64,000 nucleotides of DNA from Tubiluchus corallicola. Taxonomy: Eukaryota > Priapulida > Priapulimorpha > Priapulimorphida > Tubiluchidae. Below the pieces are notes generated by a model. It was not told where the DNA came from. It saw only the letters and a program-made list of their open reading frames with translations, and searched no databases. Below are positions 840 through 48,000 of the stretch, piece by piece. Made by a program: the position numbers and the translations under genes. Location of the stretch: NCBI GenBank assembly GCA_030141605.1, contig JAQGDQ010000131.1, positions 434,001 to 498,000 on the forward strand, given 5' to 3'. How positions within the stretch are numbered: the first letter of the stretch is position 1; each line of letters begins with the position of its first letter.

Positions 840-848
840 ATAAAATTT
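840..848. repeat. Target-site duplication, left copy (9 bp)
   Basis: The sequence ATAAAATTT occurs here and again at 4071-4079, exactly flanking the Merlin-like element. Merlin elements and related IS1595/ISXO2 insertion sequences make 8-9 bp duplications, so the length fits. Confidence 0.75.
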
Positions 849-892
849 TAAGGAGTTAACGATTCTCCACACAATCTAAATTTAGTTTTCAG

Positions 893-1575
893 GTTGACAG
901 TTTGTAAATAGAAGAGGCAACTAAGAATGAGAGGGAGAGGGTGAGAGAAAGAGAAGGGAGAGAGTGATTTTTAGACAAAAAGAAGAGAGAAAGGACCAGC
1001 AGAAAAGGAGCTTGTTGGTACACAGGTTGATAGGCTGACAGCCTGCAATAAAGAAGGCAGCTGAGAAAAACTGGGAGGTGAGAGAAAAAGGAGAAGGGAG
1101 AGACTGATAGACAAAAAGAAGAGAAATGGTGAGTAGAAAATAATTTTGGTAGACAGATCAACAGGTTGACAGTTTGCAAATTGAGAAGGCAACTGAAAAG
1201 GAGAAGGAAAGCATGAGAGAAAGAGGAGAAAGGAAAGAGTAACTGTCAGACAAAAAGTAGAGACAAAGGGTGAACAGAAAAAGAGCTTGGTAGACAAGTT
1301 GACAGGTTCACTGTTTGCAAATAGAAAAGGCAAATGAGATGGAGAGGATGAGAGAAAGAGGGGAAGAGAGAGCCTGATGGACAAAAAGGTGAACAGAAAA
1401 ATACCTTAGCAGACAGGTCGAAAGAGAAGGCAACTGAGGAGAGGCACTGGGTGAGAGAAAGAGAAGGGGGAGAGAGACTGACAGACAAAATGGAGAGAGA
1501 AATGGGTGAACAAAAAAGAGTTTGATTCACAGGTCGACAGGTGGATAGTTTGCAAACAGAGAAGGAACTGAGAGA
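893..1575 (+). repeat. GA-rich tandem array, left arm
   Basis: About five imperfect units of roughly 130-140 bp are present. Each has a GACAGTTTGCAAAT-like segment, then AGAAGGCAACTGAGA, a purine-rich stretch with GAGAGAAAGAG, GACAAAAAGAAGAGA and GAACAGAAAAAGAGCTTGGT. Unit starts fall near 893, 1035, 1166, 1306 and 1540. The opposite strand gives long serine/leucine-rich open frames, which are composition artefacts. The same units recur inverted at 3588-4020. Confidence 0.85.
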
Positions 1576-2535
1576 AGATGTATTCTATGCATTTTTAATG
1601 TCATGCCATTCATACAATCTACTCATGCATCAATAATCGATTATATCTCAGACGGTAATAGATTTTTCGAAAAACAACTCTCTCTTGAGCATTCCTAAGG
1701 GTATGACGATCCCTATTGGGCATTGCTAGGTATGACATGCATTTCAAGATTTAGTACATAACCCTATGTACTACGCCCTTACATATGCACAAGCGTTCGG
1801 CTCCAATACATCAGATGCACATCGCATAGGATTCTAAATACAGCAATACTTCCAAACTTGAAAGCTTTTAATTTCTGATGGAATTTTCATGCTTATGTAA
1901 GATGTAGGTTTTGTGTTTGCATTTTTGTTTACTAATATGTGTTTTTCAAAGTTAAAATAACTGAACTCGCTTGACGTTTTCAAACTTATAAATCTGCTTA
2001 TTCTGTCAAAATTCCCTTGGAAAGACATTCTTGGTGAAGACTTGCACAGATGGCCAGAAATTTCTGAAAAACTGCAATATAAGCCTAGCAATGAGCAGTT
2101 TGATTTCATTGGTTGGCAGCGTTAGTGGAGCGAAGGTGTCCACACATAATGGTTCACACAGGTCAAGCTTGAACTCATATGTCATAGCCGTATGTAATCT
2201 TGCAGTTGCAATAAAAGTTGCAGGAAGAATAGATCTACCAATGTCCATTTTATGGTCTGCCAGAGAAGAGTTAACAAGAAGTTTCACCAAGTGGAAAAGA
2301 GTATTCGGGAGGGTTATTTGTTTGAAAATTCCAACTGAACTTTATAAGTACTGATGTGTTCGATCTGCTTCTGGAGCCAAAACTTGTAAGCTTTAACTCC
2401 AACATTTTTTGAATGTTTGTTTTGTTAAAATGCAATAGGTATGCTATCCAATAAAGTATTTTGATTTTTCATGCATTCAAAACCTAATATTAGTCACATT
2501 TTAATAATTATTTCAGTTGAAACACGAGATTAAAT

Positions 2536-3288
2536 TATGATCTGTGGCACAGTTAATTTTGAAGAAAAATGTCACAAACTTTGTGAAATGGTTTGTATGG
2601 AAAATGACAAACTAATAGGAGGTCATGACATTGAAGTAGAAATCAACAAATGCAAAATAAGAAAATGAAAATATCACTGCAGACATGTGACAAATGGGTT
2701 TTTGGTGCCGGTGAAAAACAAGCACAGCAAAAAATTTCCTAGTAGCGCTGAAAATCGATCAAAAAAGATATTATAACCGTTGATTGAAAAATGGATTATG
2801 CCGGGTACAATATTATTTCTGGTAATAATTTCAATAACAAAATAAATTAAACTTTAAAATTTTAATTAATGAACTATTGCAATAGTAGTCTGGTTTTCTC
2901 ACAGGTCTCCATTTTTTACTGTCCATATGTAAATTTGTATAACGATGCTTTAGTTTTCTATCGTGTTTTAGCAGCTTCTGTTCTAATAATATAGGTTGCT
3001 GGAAATCATACTGCGTCATTGAAAAGCGGCAGTCAGGTTTTTTCATAAAACTGTCAATCATTCTGTGGAATTAGTAATGGTACATGTACTAATAGCATAG
3101 AGGACATGTGGCGACACCTCAAAACATCTCTGCCGCTGAGCATTCATCGGGGATATTATGACAGCTACTTCACTGAATTTTTGTGGCACAAAATGCGCAG
3201 GAGCGAACTGACAAAATGCAAAATGACAAAAGCAGAAGTCCGCTCCTGTGCATTTTGTGCTTCACAGGTGATCTTGCAGAATGTGTAA
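2536..3288 (+). pseudogene. Decayed Merlin/ISXO2-like DDE transposase
   Basis: Family landmarks appear in order but in broken frames. A block LIGGHDIEVEINKCKIRK occurs where the family has GG...VEIDESKF. Next come KWVFGAGEK (family WVFGG.E) and ENRSKKIL...IEKWIMPGTI (family RS..TL...I...I.PGT). VNHSVELV (family VNHS..FV) follows, and then TNSIEDMWRHLK with a terminal YYDSYFTEFLWHKMRR. At least two in-frame stops and frameshifts interrupt it, and the first catalytic aspartate is replaced by asparagine (EIN for EID). The final exon-like frame from 3106 to 3288 is intact. It is therefore inactive and could only be moved in trans. The Merlin/IS1595 assignment rests on motif order. Confidence 0.75.
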
Positions 3289-3587
3289 AAATTTCTTGAT
3301 TTCAACAATTTTTTTAACTAACAAGCAAATGACTGTACAAAAAATGAAGTGATAAATGCAAGAAAAAGAATGAATGAATGAATGTATGTATTAATGATTC
3401 CCCAACTGAATAATCGACTGATTGTTTGATGTATTTATTGACTAAGTGACCAATTGACTGACTGACCGACTCCTTTTTTTAAATGTTTGTTTTGACACGA
3501 TTAACTCCATTTTCAGAGTTAAGCTTTAACATTGTTTTGCAACTGTCAAACTGTGATTTATAACTTTGCAATATTTTGTCTTTATTA

Positions 3588-4020
3588 TAGTCAACTTCCC
3601 CTCTTCCTCTCCTTCTCCTTCCCATTTGACACCTCTATTTCCAAACTGACAAGCTAGTGACCTGTCTACCAAGCACTTTTCTGTTCACTCTTTCTCTCTT
3701 CTTTTTGTCTATGAGTCTCTCTCTCCCTTTCCCCCTTTCTCTCACCATCTCCCTCTTCTTCTCAGTTGCTTTCTAAATTTGCAAACTGGCAACCTGCCGA
3801 CCTATCTACCAAACTCTTTTTGTTCACCATTTCTCTATTCCTTTTGTCAAAAATCACTCTCTCTTCATGCTTTCTTTCTGTCACTCCCTCCCTCTCTCCT
3901 CAGTTGCAAACTGTCTGTTTCTGTTTCCTCTTTCTCTCATTTCTTTTCCATCACACTCTTCTCTTACTTCTTTTTCTCTCAATCTCTCCCTTTCTTTCTC
4001 AATTCCTTCTCTATCTGAAA
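3588..4020 (-). repeat. GA-rich tandem array, right arm (inverted)
   Basis: About three units of the left-arm repeat occur in reverse complement. CT-rich stretches alternate with CTCAGTTGC, TTTGCAAACTGGCAACCTG and CTACCAAACTC-like segments. Together with the left arm this forms long inverted repeats that could fold into a stem. Frames at 3766-4094 are translations of this simple sequence and are not genes. Confidence 0.85.
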
Positions 4021-4070
4021 GTGGTTTGGAAAAACAAATTTCTTGTGTATGGAGAATTGTACACTTTAGC

Positions 4071-4250
4071 ATAAAATTTAATGTTAGAATGTAGCAGCAA
4101 GGTGACTCATTTGATTCATTTTTAATAGCTGTCAAGATCATATGAGTACCAGAATGACCTTCAGCATTGGCTTCTAAAAGCTAATAGCACATGTGGAAAC
4201 CTGAAATACCTTCACGCCATCTCGTGTGAACAAGCCAAGAAAACATACAG
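4071..4250 (+). pseudogene. Ty3/gypsy-like gag remnant, 3' part
   Basis: After the right target-site duplication (4071-4079) the gag frame resumes with a QQGDSFDSFL block. This corresponds to the conserved segment after the interrupted region in gypsy-type gag proteins. A stop codon lies just before it, and similarity fades after about 4250 (a possible LKYLHAISCEQAK block). It supports the view that the Merlin-like element inserted into a pre-existing gag copy. Confidence 0.55.
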
Positions 4251-15445: not shown

Positions 15446-18400
15446 ATGGCAGAATCGACAGTAAATAGCGATTCCTTAGTTCAAGGAATAAAATGCATCC
15501 AAGACCTGAGATTCAATGTGGGAGAGCTGTTTAAAAAAATGTCGGATGGCGTAAAGGGTCCTGACGATCGAGATGGAAAGGAAAAAGAATTCCTGACAGA
15601 TGTACATCATACAATTGTGGGAGTGCACAAGAATCTTGTGTAAATTACTATAGTGTTTTAGTATTTTCTATTATCTTTGCTAGGTATCGAGTGTGTTTGA
15701 GTATTAATGCTATATTGAGTGTTTGAGTACTAAGTATCCATAACTTTGTATTCAGTATGTGTAAAATGTTGTTTAAAGCAAAACCGGACCCAGTCTTAAA
15801 CAGTAGGTCAAAACAATCTACTCTTTAAAATATTAAAAGGAAACTTACTATTTTTTCAAAAATGACTTATGTGAAAGAGCAGTTCTCCACTGTTACATGC
15901 ATTTTGCCATTCACTAGTTAGGCGAGCACTAGCACTTGCATTTCGGAACTGAATTGCACAAAAAACAGGTGCTGTACCTTTCAGTTCAGATGTGTTAATT
16001 TGTGACAAACTACACACATTCAACAGCTCGTGCGTGAGCATAGAGGTAAATTTGAATTTTTATCTTAAAACTTGTCTAGTCTTAGTAGAACACACTAAAT
16101 ACATTACAGTAGCACTGTACTTCAATTTTCGCTTTGCAAACACGTGGAATATTTTTGCTGTTGAAAATTATGTTAGTTAGTGATGTCATCAATAGTTAGG
16201 CTTGCCCGCCGTTAGTTCAGTTTTTAATTTAATGATTATTTAATTATCAGAAATGCTTTTGCAATATTAATTCAGTTAAAATGTATTCTTTTTATCCGAC
16301 TTGAAAATGTGGTAGTATATGAAAAATCATCCTTTTTTCCTTTGATGTTATCACTAATTAGATTAATGCTAGTCTTAATTGTGCCATTCTTTTTAGGTGC
16401 ATGACATGTAAATTGTAACTTTTAATTGATTAATGTATTTGTGTAATTGTAGAGAGATTGAAAAGATTACAAATGAATTACCAGATCGCTGTGGTCCGTC
16501 TTTGTCACTGGGAAATATGGGCTTACTTTATCAAGATCCAGTTCAGGACAGGGAAACACTTTACAACCAACTTCTCAATGCCTATAAATGGTCAGACAAG
16601 GTATAAATGCATCCTGAGTCAGTGTGCCATCTTCTGTAATATTGTTTTTATACATGAATATATAGTAAATCTTTCAATTTATTCTTTGTTAATCAAAAAA
16701 TACATTCAAAATTAGTAGTTTGAAGAGTGGCAGAGAATCTGTGATTGTTCAAATTTGTAAATCCATACAAAATTACATTGCATCTCCAAGTGCATTTAAA
16801 AGTTCGTTAGTCTTGTATGAACTTCTCTTGATCAAGTTGCATTCCTGTCTTGTTGTGGCACTTAGGAACTAATCAAATTCGATCAACTGCAGAAAATCAC
16901 CTGTATATTTGCAGGTCAGGTGGGAGCCATTGGTAAAACAATGAACTACAAGAATAATTAATTATTCCTGATTAAGATCGTGAAATGCATGTGTGCAAAA
17001 AGTTGCAAGAGTCATTGACCTGTTGACAGTCTATTCAGACTCACTTAACATTGCAGCTTGTTTCCTTTTTGTGTACGTTTTTATGTAGTTTTTATTTTCA
17101 GTTGCATGATCAGTCACAGGTTGCTGCATCAGTACAGACTGCTAATTCATTGAAGAGAACCGCCACTATGTCAGTGAATACCGCAAAACGTTTACGGCGA
17201 CCCGGTCCCACCATACATGCTGTTCCACCTCAGTAAGTCTCACATTTTTTGGCAGTTTACGACGATTGTCCATATTCGGGGTTGCTTGATTGCACTGTCA
17301 CAGCACAAGATGTGGTTCAAAATTCTTGTTACGAAGACCCTACTGTTATTTGTGTAAAGTTTGGATAAACTTTTACGGTCACGATTTATACACATCACTT
17401 GATCGTACTGTTAAACTAGTAGAAATGAAAAGATAAATATAAGTAGCCAATTTTTGTGGAACTAGTTATGTAAGTTAATGATAAAGCTTTTTGTGGCTTT
17501 TTTTGGTTTTGTTGTTTTCACAGAATTGCAAACATAATTTTTCCATTTTTGACTTCTGCTAAGCAATTTAAAATTGAGGGCAAGTAAAAAATAGAAAGTT
17601 TATTGAGAATGTTCTTAAATTTTTATGCAGTAATGTTACTATATTTGATAGAAATTTTAGCTATGGAAGGTCTTCTACGCCTTGTGTGCACACTAATTAC
17701 CAAATACTGGGCAAACTTTTGGCAGAATGAAACATTTGAATATTTCTTGATTTCAGGAACTTAAATCAATTGTTGTGCTGTATGATTTCAAATAGAATGT
17801 GAGTTCTACCCTTAATATTCTAACTTGAATCATTTTTGAAGTGCATATTTTGTTTCAGTATTGTTGATACGACTTTGGCAAGTCTCAATCACCTGTTCCC
17901 TAATGAAATGACTGTACAACTTACACGGCCAATGGGTTCGTCTGCTATTCTAAAAGTAAGTTTCGAAATACAAGGTGCCTCAAAAGTCACTGTATACTTT
18001 GACTTCTAATTTTCTTTTTAAACTTTTTCTCCAATCTTAGGAAGCACTTACTTGAATCAGGAGAGGCTGTTGGCAATTTTGTATGCATTCTTTAACTGTT
18101 GCTATGGTGATGACATTAACGTTAGAAATGAGATACAAAATCAGTCTAGCTTGAGGTCCTTCAATGACTAACTGAAGTTTAGCATGCCATATGGACAACA
18201 CTATTAACAATGTAGTTTTGCAACAAGGTGCAGCCCTTCCTCACTACTGTTGGATGGTCAACTTGCCATTAAATTGGTCCCTGAGGCTTTAGGTGTCACT
18301 GAAGAAGGTTCAATAATAGCAAAGCCAACTATTGCAGTAGTTCTTTGCAGATTTTTGTCTGATTTGACCAAAAGAATTGCCTATGGTTTTAGTTCACCTG

Positions 18401-36200: not shown

Positions 36201-39200
36201 GTGATTTTATACATGTTTTATCCATTTGCTAAGCAATATTCCTCAGGAAATACCAAAAAGGTTAATGCTGAAATATTGCACACCTTTCTCTTAGCATGGT
36301 ATTGTTTCGAATTGATTTTTTTCTATGTATTAGTATTGGTCTTAGTATTGTTGAAAATATTTCTCGCAAATTTTTATACTACTCTACATTAAAAATCTGT
36401 GAGGCAGAAAGACAAATTTTTCTGAAATTTAAAATGTCACATCCTGCACTATTAGCTTGTTCCTCTCGAGTTTCTCCTTCACATACGTATAGTAAATAGG
36501 GAAGGTTGAAGAACTTACTCTTGATCAGAACTGGTGCTGTATGTGAAATCTTTTTCAATAAACAAACTTCGACACTTTTCATCTATTGCAGCACAATTTT
36601 GCATGTAAATTTTGAGTAATATTCAAACTTTACCAATTCCTTTTTAAAGGACATCGCCAGGAAGCATCCGGAGACTTGGTTCGTCTTCCAGAAGATGAAG
36701 TATATGTATGATTGGGAAGAAAAGAAGCAGTTTTTTGCTGTTGAGTTTCCCATTGATTTATCAATGAAGGAGTACACTGACTGGAAGGGATATGTTGAGG
36801 AAACTAGTCTAGAAGCAGCTAAACGAAAATATGGAGACAATAAGTACGTAATTTGGCTTTTTTGTAAAATTGTAGTTTTCAAGCAGGATTCATGACACAT
36901 AAAACCACAATTCTATGAATATTTCATAATGCATTGACTCATTCAAGTATTAATGCAAGTCACTGTCATCACTAATAGTACTGCTAATATCATTGATTGG
37001 CTAGACTTTGTGTTTGTGTAAGTTTAAGGTGTTACTGTTTTAAAGTGTTAGTGTAAGAGCTGCTATTCTGTTAACGGATCTGTTCTTCGGGGGCCTTAAT
37101 TTGAGCTCATATTTTAGCTCAGTTTAAAGCAGGTGTTACATCGAATGCTGATAAATCTGTTAACAGATGTAGTCGTTTTTTACCCAAAGCCACTTTTCAA
37201 GAAATCCAGTGAATAATGGAACTTGGATAAAGTAGGCAGACTTAATGGAAAACAAAGTTAACGGAAAACAAGATAATTTTTCATATCCTTCCCCATTTTG
37301 AAGTATGGTAAAAAAAAGTATACATTTTAACACCAATTATACTGTAAAAACATGTTAATTTGATAATTAAATAATATATTAAAGCTTAGTAATAGCGGGG
37401 AGCTATTGATAGCATCACAAATGAACATGATTTTCAACAGCAAAAACATTCCATGAGCGTGTTACATGTGTTTGCAAAGCAAAAATGGAAAGACATTGCT
37501 ACTGTACGAGATACAATGTGTTATGCTAAAACTCGGCACCTTTTAAGATAATTCGTATTTCAAATTTATGACTGCACTTATGCATGAGCTCTCGTACGTG
37601 TGCACTACCTCACAAGCAAGCATCTCTGAACTGAAAGAAACAGCACCCGCTTTTTGTGCAACACGTTTCCGAAACGCAGGTATTAGTGCTTATCTGACTA
37701 ACGATGCATGTAACAGCGAAGAACTAGCCGCGCGAACGCGAAATTGCATCTATGTGGTAATAATTCTTTCACATGAATCATTTTTGAAAAAAAAATACAT
37801 TCCTTTTCAATATTTTATAGAGTAGATTGTTTTGACCTACAGTTTTAATTTGGGTCCGGTTTTCCTTTAACAGATTTGCCTTTGCTTAAGTTGAATACAT
37901 AGATTTGTTAAAAAGCCTTTTATAGGATGTAACAGAAGCTGTTGTGCTCGAAGCATTGTAAAACAATTAACTGGGATGCTTTTGATCAGGATCAAGACAA
38001 AAAGAATAAACTTTTCTATCTGTTACAGAATGGAGATGGTAGTTCCCGACTTTACCGAGCTTTTCAAAGAGCGTGCAACGGCTCCTTTTTTTGTTTTCCA
38101 AGTTTTCTGTGTTGGTTTGTGGTGTCTGGATGAGTACTGGTATTACTCTTTATTCACACTGTTCATGTTAATCGCATTTGAAGCTACTTTGGTTCAACAA
38201 CAGTTGCACAACATGAAAGAAATACGCAACATGAGCAACAAGCCTTACAACATTCAAGTAAGTTAATTAATTAATTTTCAGTTTTTAAATCTGTAAGCAT
38301 TTAACTAATTACTTTAGTTATGTATAAAGGCAGGTTAACAAAGAGTAAAATTTAGAATTGAGAATTAATAAGAGTTTTAGCGTAAGAAGTTAGTCTTTCA
38401 TCTAAGCTGATTTTTTTAAGCATGTTTCAAACAAATAAATGGATTTATGACTAATTAGTGGATAATAATTCTACAGTATGTGTCCTGTTGTTACAAAGTG
38501 GTTGTAGCTTTTTCTTATAATTTTGATTAACTATAATATCGCTGTTTATAGAACTTAGATTAAACACATGGTTTTAAGTTTAATTTTTCAACAAGTTGCA
38601 TCTTTTCAATGTTGTCTTTTTCTCCTTTAAACAATTAAATGTTACGTTTAACAGTCAGATCACAGTTATTCAAGCTTATTAAATTTTTCCTCATCCATTT
38701 TGTTGTTTTCTTGCTTGCTAGTTTGCATGTTTCCTTATCAATTTAGGTATATAGAAACAAAAGGTGGCGTCCTATCATGAGCAATGAGCTTATTGCTGGT
38801 GACATTGTTTCTGTTGGTAAGTATGAAATGTTGTTATACTTTTGAGTATTTTTATAGCCTTAATTGTGAAATTTGCGTAATTCTTGACTAAATGCACAGA
38901 TACATGTTATGCTTACTTAGTGGTATGAACTATTTCTTATATGTGTTTCACTTACCATTGCATTTTGTGTTTTCAAGTGTGATTCTTATGATATTGAAAC
39001 ATACAGTTGGACAATTGAGCAAGTGAATAGAACATTTTAAATTATTGTTTATTAACTAGTACCAAATGTTTATTATCTTATGTACAGTAAAGTCTTTTAA
39101 AACCTAGTAACATTGCCTGATTTCTGTTTCAGGTCGCTCTCATAATGAAAACCTGATACCTTGTGATATGCTTCTTATTAGAGGTCCCTGCATAGTAGAT

Positions 39201-45000: not shown

Positions 45001-48000
45001 CATTTGTAGTTTAGCCATCTTCCGGAAGACTACGATAGTGTATATTTGGAAATGTCACGTCAAGGAGCACGTGTTCTCGCCCTTGGTTACCGAAAGCTTG
45101 GCACATTATCACATCAGCAGGTAAGTTTTGCTTTTTTGAAACTGTAGTACTTGATACCCATGCATTAAACATATCACTATCATAACATTGTTATTTTTAT
45201 TTGAAATCTTTTATGTGCAAGATTACATTCAGTAGTGCTTCGGTAGTTGTTTCGCTTTGTTATGTAAAGTTATGAAGTATTTAACACAGATTGTGATCTA
45301 CTTTTGTATAACCCAGATTTTGTTGAATAAATCAAGAACCTTGAAGTTTTTGTGCGGACTTCGCAAGTTCGAAATGGGATATAGGAATTGCAAATTTGAT
45401 TTTTATTAAGTATAATATCAACTATGTCATTTAAAAGGTGAGAATGCTCTTGTGGGGTAACAGTATTAAACCTTTAGAGATACAGAATCAGTGATTCTCT
45501 AGAATATTAATTGTATTAGATTGAATTCTTGCTTTTTACAAGTTTTTGTTAATATATATTTAACTGTAATCAAATGTATTTCATAGGAAGCTGTTTTATG
45601 TCAATAAATCGTACTGATTTTTGCCTTTAATTTTTTTGTTTTAAGCGTGATAAAAATGATAGCCATACAGTTTGTTTTACTGTAAAATAGTGAGAGTTTG
45701 TTTTTCTAAAACTAAACTCGAAATTATTTTAAGGGAATAATGTAATAAATGTAGCTGTTTAAGTTGATAACAATTGGTTCTTTGGTGTTCTAAATTGTGC
45801 AGTGTATTACTCGTGCACAGTGGTATGATACACAAACTATACATTTTTAAAATACAGTTGTTAAAGTGGAGAAAACCTTGTTCATTTTCTTGTTGGTGTA
45901 ACATGTCTTTCTAGGTACGTGAATTGAGCCGAGAAGATCTGGAACATGATCTGGAGTTTGTTGGCTTTGTTATTATTTCTTGTCCGTTAAAGAGTGATTC
46001 TAAAGCAGTTATCAAAGAGATTCAGCACTCATCACATCATGTACGTTTTACAGTCTGAGATGTCTATATGTGAAGTGATGTCCCTGCATTTCCTTTGTAT
46101 GCCTAGTAGCTTTCCATTAATTGTCTAACTTAGTATGCATGCTGTATGGTCACACTGTCATTTTAATTACACTGTTATTACGTCTAGTATTACTGGAACC
46201 TCTATTTCAATTTTATGTGATTGATAAGACCGAACTATGACAACATGTTAATAGCTAATATTTTGCAATTATTTTAAATATTAGCGATTTTGGTACGTTT
46301 TATCTTTTTGTGCAGCCTATCAAAACAAAATTTACATCAGTTTCATTGATATCTATACTCTAATATAGTTGTAGTAAGTTATATTGACGATCATTTTTAT
46401 AACATCAATTTCAGGTGGTAATGATAACAGGAGACAATCCTCTCACTGCTTGTCACGTTGCACGAGAGCTGCATTTCACTAAGCAGTCGTCTACACTAAT
46501 TCTCACACCTGCAACTGAAAGTGGTAAATTTTTATTTGTATGATGGGAGAAAAGAATTTAACTGATTCCAATGTTGATCTTTTATAATTTTTCGGTATGT
46601 TTTGGCTTTTATTTGTAAACTTACAACAAAATAAGAAAAATAATGCATGATGATCATTTTTGTTTAACATATTAAACTGAACGTATGAATATGCTTTCAG
46701 GTAAGTATACACTTGAAAGGGTTTTGAGATCCAAAGATGTTTAGTTGTTTACATAAAACAAATAACAGATAAAGTATAAAGACTAATCTCCGCAAAGAAA
46801 CATTAGCGTGGTCCCCTACTAGTCAATCTGATACAGGTAGAGATCATATAGGGTGGAAGTAGGACAAGCAAACCGAAAGTAGGTTTTTACGCAGTTGCAT
46901 CTATGGTTTTAACAATTTATTTGCTACAATTTTGCTCAAATCTGTGTGGAATTATTAGGATTAATGTTGTACAGTATATATGCAAATTATAAACACTATC
47001 TTTATTTTCTTTTCTTTGTATTTCTAGAACCTGACTGGCACTGGTTATCAGTTGACGAGAGTATCGTTCTACCAGTGATTCCAGATGAGGGATATCGAGC
47101 TTTATGCAAAAATCATGATCTTTGTCTGACGGGAGAGGTAATCCAGAAAATGCTTTCACTTGAACACATATTAGCAGTGAAGAGACTGTTGCTACTTATT
47201 CAGCACTTAGTGTACTTAATTTAGGAATGATTACTAAGTCTAGAAATAAAATTAGTGAAAACAAGTTGAAAAACCATGCTGTAATGTCTTGCTTGATCGA
47301 ATTTGTTTTCTGATGTAATTTTTGCTGACTTTTATTGTTTAGGGCCTGACGTACTTGTCAGAAACGCACAGAAATTTCCTCAAGAAGATCATTCCATTTG
47401 TTCGGGTTTACGCTAGAGTAGCACCAACTCAAAAAGAAGGCATCATTACAAAGATGAAGGCATTGGGATTTGTCACACTAATGTGTGGTGATGGTACTAA
47501 TGACGTTGGAGCATTAAAGCATGCCCACTGTGGTACGTTACTAATTTTCTGGGAGCTTTTTTTTGTTTTTGACTCGAATTCTCATCAGCAAACTTGTTTG
47601 ATGGCAAAAATATGTTTCTATTCTGATATGATTGTTGTGGTCTACCACTAAGTCATTGCAAATATTTTGAAACATCAATGCGTGCATTTTCCATCTCAAG
47701 AAATAAAAGGCATAGTAATTGTCAGCTGCCTTTAATAATGCCATTAATTTTTTTGTCTAATTATTGGAATGCTTAATATTTTAGGTTTCTCACGTGAGGT
47801 TCTCTTGTAAAATGTTGTTGTTGTAAGTTTCCTCAACATCCTCGTCATTTTCATCATCATCGTCATCATCATCATCATCTAGCACCCATTACATCTATTA
47901 TAAACATTTGACAGGCAGAAATCTAAAATAAAAGGAAACTGCTCTCAAGACGAGTAAACATAGCAGTTAATCTAGAAAAACTAGGCACTGCTATGCTAGT

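Follow-up and report, generated by a model that had tools for sequence, protein, structure and literature searches.

In cut-and-paste elements, the transposase recognises the ends of the element, excises it, inserts it elsewhere and mobilises gene-less copies in trans. The foldback layout, in which long inverted repeats consist largely of tandem units, is reportedly tied to Mutator in the case of Tm1. A further foldback layout belongs to the P superfamily, that of Galileo in Drosophila (PMC3688188). As in the family described here, the accessible accounts of Galileo (PMC3688188, PMC3573991) report long, internally repetitive terminal inverted repeats (TIRs) with unit numbers that differ between the arms, and near-complete, two-TIR and solo-TIR forms. 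Galileo differs in having a THAP-domain P-type transposase and 7-bp target duplications (PMC3688188, PMC3573991), and its copies are recent, with mean TIR identities of ∼97% in one table (PMC3573991). Tetris of Drosophila virilis, apparently a non-autonomous foldback, likewise has a terminal segment and, after it, tandem units of ∼220 bp in varying number, according to the available part of its description (PMC4079207). There, however, 37 bp of the unit recur in the terminal segment, and the element has seeded satellite arrays (PMC4079207), whereas unit and terminus are unalike in our element and no long array was present in it or in the 19 further loci that we read.

Merlin elements, as described in 2021 in the accessible portion of PMC8101967, have a GG terminus, produce 8-9-bp duplications and carry TIRs of 24-462 bp; the families reported include Sy.m_F1 and Sy.k_F2 of Symbiodinium. 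Some Merlin families have internal tandem repeats, in one case 52-bp units in a region of which a second, oppositely oriented copy lies on the 5′ side, and in another 163-bp units in 4 or 3 copies (PMC8101967). Going by these sources, Merlin elements with tandem repeats are already known, and so are foldback arms in elements of other superfamilies. A literature search, mostly at the level of titles and abstracts, found no Merlin element described as a foldback. The remark in a preliminary description of this DNA that its author knew of no Merlin with such arms has to be qualified in view of the published tandem repeats.

Here we describe an element in a 64-kb window, by which we mean the whole stretch of DNA that was analysed. 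We conclude that positions 849-4071 are probably an old, inactivated Merlin (IS1016/IS1595-like) copy in which the terminal inverted repeats have been enlarged to foldback arms. It resembles the Merlin superfamily in its PF12762 transposase and in its 8-bp duplications; GG, the Merlin terminus, is found at most of its relatives' ends but not at its own. Unlike the Merlins in the accessible portion of PMC8101967, it has arrays mirrored at both ends just inside the terminal repeats, with arms of ∼0.5-0.7 kb, and its core-less derivatives keep this mirrored layout. A foldback Merlin family, if true, would add an unrelated transposase to the foldback layouts, and it would make it more credible that arms of tandem repeats originate by convergence and perhaps assist cut-and-paste transposases in locating their ends.

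Facing arrays and element ends

Two tandem arrays of one GA-rich unit of ∼140 bp face each other in the window. The left arm (890-1576, plus strand; delimited by TRF and unit boundaries) holds ∼5.3 units, at 890-1030, 1031-1161, 1162-1302, 1303-1415 and 1416-1537 with a partial unit at 1538-1576, and TRF reported 890-1345 as an array of period 141. The right arm (3595-4031, minus strand; delimited by an inverted-repeat search, BLAST and unit boundaries) holds ∼3.4 units, which read from the outside in as 4031-3922 (decayed), 3921-3797, 3796-3657 and a partial unit at 3656-3595. The inverted-repeat search paired 1110-1281 with 3677-3848 (172 nt ungapped, 77%), along with many overlapping stretches, and BLAST aligned 1073-1366 with 3888-3595 at 76% identity over 302 columns. 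At E ≤ 1e-3, the arms matched only each other within the 64-kb window. The arm-to-arm Smith-Waterman score was 244, whereas 300 dinucleotide-shuffled pairs averaged 37 and did not exceed 66; since it lies so far above the shuffle maximum, the similarity goes beyond GA-richness, and a chance likeness of two GA-rich sequences is ruled out. The facing arrays and the unit counts of about five and three given in the preliminary description were confirmed. The arrays span 890-4031, slightly more than the 893-4020 stated there, and the whole element with ends and target duplication occupies 841-4079. The window thus contains inverted repeats that are long and consist mainly of tandem units, and facing units were also seen at three other loci (L016, L017 and L021). 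Folded as a single strand, the left arm gave a z score of −1.77, and 1 of 20 shuffles (the full number made) folded as well. An exact 22-base pattern from the unit had no match in viral contigs.

On their outer sides the arrays abut a pair of imperfect terminal repeats of ∼39 bp, so that they do lie inside short terminal repeats as had been claimed. The left repeat (849-887, plus strand) belongs to a subtype that we call TL (nhmmer 849-886, E = 1.6e-7) and the right one (4033-4071, minus strand) to a subtype TR (nhmmer 4029-4070, E = 2.5e-10), with models that in both cases include the window copy. They are flanked by a probable target-site duplication, TAAAATTT, which is identical at 841-848 and 4072-4079. 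This match was found before the element ends were fixed; it is 8/8 with the element at 849-4071, assuming that one base was lost at the left end, and only 5/8 if the left end is set at 848 by strict analogy to the relatives. An identical 9-mer is present at 840-848 and 4071-4079, and 41 of 5,000 random pairs were as good. Among ∼20,000 randomly drawn window pairs, 4 scored as high as the flanks 840-889 against 4085-4031, whose alignment includes AT-rich flank. In the relatives, TL starts with GGAAG (matched in L010, L011, L013, L017 and L021) and TR with GGCTAAAG (matched in L011, L012, L014, L019, L021, L022, L024, L025 and L027). Leaving out two spurious-looking matches, 10 of the 15 ends at other loci start with GG, whereas the ends of the window copy read TA and TG. 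The unit and the terminal 39 bp showed no similarity above that of shuffles, and a Tetris-like origin of the unit out of the terminal repeat was rejected for this reason.

Relatives of the arms elsewhere in the genome

The genome searched comprises 343.5 Mb in 2344 contigs, with the window in contig C1793. With the left arm as query we obtained at least 26 matches; because they come from this one query, copy numbers are lower bounds. We read a 9.9-kb stretch from each of the 19 other contigs with a listed match. Units were detected in 18 of the 19 at E ≤ 0.01 with the unit model and in all 19 at E ≤ 0.1 with a refined model, which answers the earlier proposal to count units in other genomic copies: 14 loci hold two or more units, and five gave a single unit match. 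Across the window and these loci, unit number varies from one to about five per arm.

A terminal match adjoins the units in the expected orientation at 11 of the 19 loci (L010, L012, L013, L014, L017, L019, L021, L022, L023 [weakly], L025 and L027), and none adjoins them at the other eight (L009, L011, L015, L016, L018, L020, L024 and L026). Consensus ends, used as query, gave 17 matches, 12 of which adjoin units correctly; these consensus ends were partly built from the matches themselves, and the least circular test is a query with the window's two terminal repeats alone. At E ≤ 0.05 this returned nine matches among the 19 other loci. Five of them are correctly oriented and immediately adjoin units on the outer side (L010, L012, L013, L014 and L019), where the chance of correct adjoining is 0.022 per match. 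Most TR copies have a spacer of ∼40 bp before the units, which the window copy and L021 lack. The family therefore includes at least two subfamilies, with the window copy differing in this respect from most TR copies.

Two of the loci contain two-ended foldbacks. The copy at L021 (4437-5174) is 738 bp long, with both ends, facing units and a duplication, CACTAACT/CATTAATT, that matches at 6/8 positions. The copy at L017 (2379-6505) is 4127 bp long and also has both ends, the left one a terminal match of 20 bp at E = 0.056, facing units and a duplication, GATATGAC/CATATTAC, matching at 6/8. The search for partner ends kept only candidates whose duplication matched at 6/8 or better, a level reached by 0.75% of 8-mer pairs drawn at random from the same loci. 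In neither copy did tblastn find a transposase match, and no listed open reading frame in the core of L017 looked transposase-like by eye. At L016, two arrays of three units face each other across a loop of 203 bp, with no recognised terminal ends. For nine one-ended copies (L010, L012, L013, L014, L019, L022, L024, L025 and L027), no credible partner end was found.

Some loci share more than the arms. L011, L013 and L015 have several kilobases in common beyond the units, in pieces at 73-93% identity (L011 5165-9724, L013 5209-9725, L015 67-4881, with a ∼63-bp tandem repeat in L011). The stretch is either a larger dispersed repeat or a duplication containing a foldback remnant, and these three loci are copies of one larger repeat and not independent insertions. 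Separate from its units, L011 also contains a 184-bp element (1384-1567) with both terminal subtypes and no unit, whose flanks agree at 4/8 and whose interior contains TAACCC-like, telomere-type repeats. Short inner segments are common to L010, L016, L017 and L024.

Identity between units averaged 0.707 within elements (84 pairs) and 0.698 between elements (1130 pairs); 55 of 57 aligned rows were used, and L011 and L015 were then left out. The window units are 0.736 identical among themselves and 0.712 to those of other loci. Within the window, the left units share 0.768 among themselves and 0.737 with the right units, and the right units 0.670 among themselves. Since divergence within elements is about the same as between them, giving a near-star pattern, these values suggest one old burst that started from a copy whose units were nearly identical and whose descendants then decayed independently. 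The two arms would then have been near-identical at insertion. With its two terminal subtypes and its unit, the family is a testable repeat family that can be searched for in related species.

The transposase relic and its connection to the arms

Between the arms lie the remains of a transposase gene on the plus strand, consisting of an N-terminal part with internal stops (2090-2335), a middle part with stops and frameshifts (2528-2815) and a further segment at 2997-3204. Frame breaks and splice-like ends point to two possible introns, at 2386-2516 (GTAAGC..TTTCAG) and 2822-2994 (GTAATA..ATATAG), and the gene was probably split by introns. A read-through, for which pieces were taken in order from three frames and X was set at the junctions, matched PF12762 (DDE_Tnp_IS1595) with E = 2.7e-8 and 34.4 bits, above the Pfam cut-off of 27; the match covers read-through residues 143-224 and supports the segment at 2997-3204. 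None of the five single open pieces tried had a Merlin match in Pfam, and the relic matched nothing in NCBIfam. On the strength of the profile match, the core is a relic of a Merlin/IS1016-type transposase, as had been proposed. To judge from its stops and frameshifts, the window copy is dead. By hand reading, the DDE triad is not intact, with the first two acidic positions changed and the E kept, and we take this alteration to mean lost activity and not a different descent. Within the 3′ part of the core, a stretch rich in ATGA/ACTG (3327-3471) matches many sites in the genome and is the source of many weak core hits.

The inner left flank of the core (1577-1908, plus strand), which is continuous with the array, recurs at L009 on contig C792, as seen by nhmmer and local alignment. 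There the similarity runs from the last partial unit into the core (1541 to ∼1908), with a local score of 269.5, to which ∼36 bp of unit contribute; none of 50 letter shuffles scored above 151. Searches with the core only gave E = 6.8e-11 for 1578-1765 and E = 5.5e-4 for 1809-1908. Array and core flank must therefore have been joined before these copies parted. Other relics of the core are present on C97 (covering 1886-2071), C1652 (2625-2897) and C1730 (2412-3329), the last with 65% identity to the window in its coding part. In the 8 kb read at C1730, units gave no match and none of the terminal matches fell below E = 0.079. A second locus that joins arrays to transposase-coding sequence was not found, L009 reaching only 1577-1908 of the core, and this missing copy is the main gap in the case for a native gene.

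A genome-wide search with PF12762 gave seven matches (G000 C2335:84509-84928, C1923, C763, C827, C2089, C158 and C1677), with the window relic not among them. The matched stretch is free of stops in six of the seven loci, and five align to the window transposase at 27-32% identity. No unit or terminal match was present within ∼1.5 kb on each side of any of the seven. One of these loci, L043, is a weak candidate for a short element; its exact 8-bp duplication came from a free search over many pairs, and the same search gave no short-element candidate at the other six.

The preliminary description had named a result that would speak for independent satellites flanking the gene by accident, namely arrays that occur throughout the genome without the Merlin core. 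Units do occur without transposase at the 19 further sites, eight of which have no adjoining terminal repeat. However, such GA-rich satellite or minisatellite arrays next to a Merlin relic are very improbable, given that the arrays are short, that the family's own terminal repeat adjoins them in the correct orientation at the 11 other sites, that units face each other at three loci and that L017 and L021 have both ends and 8-bp duplications. The adjoining ends, the two-ended copies and the placement tests all disfavour free satellites. Since the units without the core so often carry the same ends, they are better understood as gene-less derivatives.

A different view would separate the arms from the gene, making the arms a foldback element of another superfamily that also produces 8-bp duplications, with a Merlin gene inserted or captured in one copy. 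The window is the sole copy, of those read, in which arrays and Merlin coding sequence are joined, tblastn matched no such sequence in any of the 19 other loci, and the Merlin relic on C1730 shows no units, all of which such a capture would lead one to expect. We nevertheless consider it unlikely. The array-core junction recurs at C792 with ∼330 bp of core flank, so that an insertion private to the window does not account for this flank, and the GG starts of most other ends and the 8-bp duplications fit Merlin. That the arrays are part of the same element as the gene is supported by their abutting the terminal repeats, the recurrence of the layout, the two two-ended foldbacks and the junction at L009. 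The foldback architecture of a Merlin-like element, the central claim of the preliminary description, is thus supported by terminal repeats and units that recur together at other loci and by a shared array-core junction, and the gene-less relatives indicate that this transposon family appears to have evolved the layout.

Proposed mobilisation and further features of the window

In such a Merlin foldback, each end would consist of a terminus of ∼39 bp followed inward by the tandem array of ∼140-bp GA-rich units, the whole mirrored around a probably intron-split gene. An active transposase would recognise the ends through the terminal 39 bp, possibly aided by sites in the units, excise the element and reinsert it elsewhere with 8-bp duplications. 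Gene-less copies with ends and units could be mobilised in trans, giving rise to small foldbacks and one-ended remnants. The 8-bp duplications are an indirect sign that elements with these arms have moved. Mobilisation by this transposase, the introns and any role of the arrays in binding are what we infer, as distinct from the observed arrays, ends, transposase relic, core-less relatives that share the ends, and array-core junction common to two loci.

A 13-mer motif within the unit, GACAGTTTGCAAA, had been put forward as a repeated transposase-binding site. It is exact in one unit (at 1168), and eight of the ten window units have it with 0-3 mismatches. Over the units of other loci its conservation is 0.869, compared with a unit mean of 0.813 and 0.878 for the best window of the unit. 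It is therefore among the best-conserved windows, yet within what shuffled columns give, the 95% level for the best window in column-shuffled profiles being 0.904. This test is weak, because copies are expected to decay neutrally once they have inserted. As a tentative addition to the Merlin foldback reading, the arrays may have been selected as multiple binding sites of this kind, as in Galileo, where tandem repeats in the long TIRs are described as holding extra transposase-binding sites (PMC3688188). The retention of the motif in most window units and its rank within the unit are consistent with this idea; its failure to exceed the shuffled level and the absence of any likeness between unit and terminal 39 bp above shuffles count against it, leaving the motif a possible site only. 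A fuller scenario, which we regard as speculative and rather doubtful, is that a Merlin with an IS1595-type transposase convergently evolved arms with multiple binding sites, that array length tuned transposition and that gene-less foldbacks came to outnumber the autonomous form.

The window contains other features as well. An unrelated dispersed repeat forms an inverted pair at 15773-16343 and 37260-37870 (68% over 632 columns), in which no clear protein was apparent by eye. Of the 46 window open reading frames of at least 90 amino acids, 20 were compared with Pfam, and none of these exceeded a cut-off. A reading frame at 47343-47546 points to a eukaryotic host; it resembles a P5A-type ATPase (endoplasmic reticulum transmembrane helix translocase; best E = 1.5e-20 among PDB sequences) and is either a host exon or a pseudogene.
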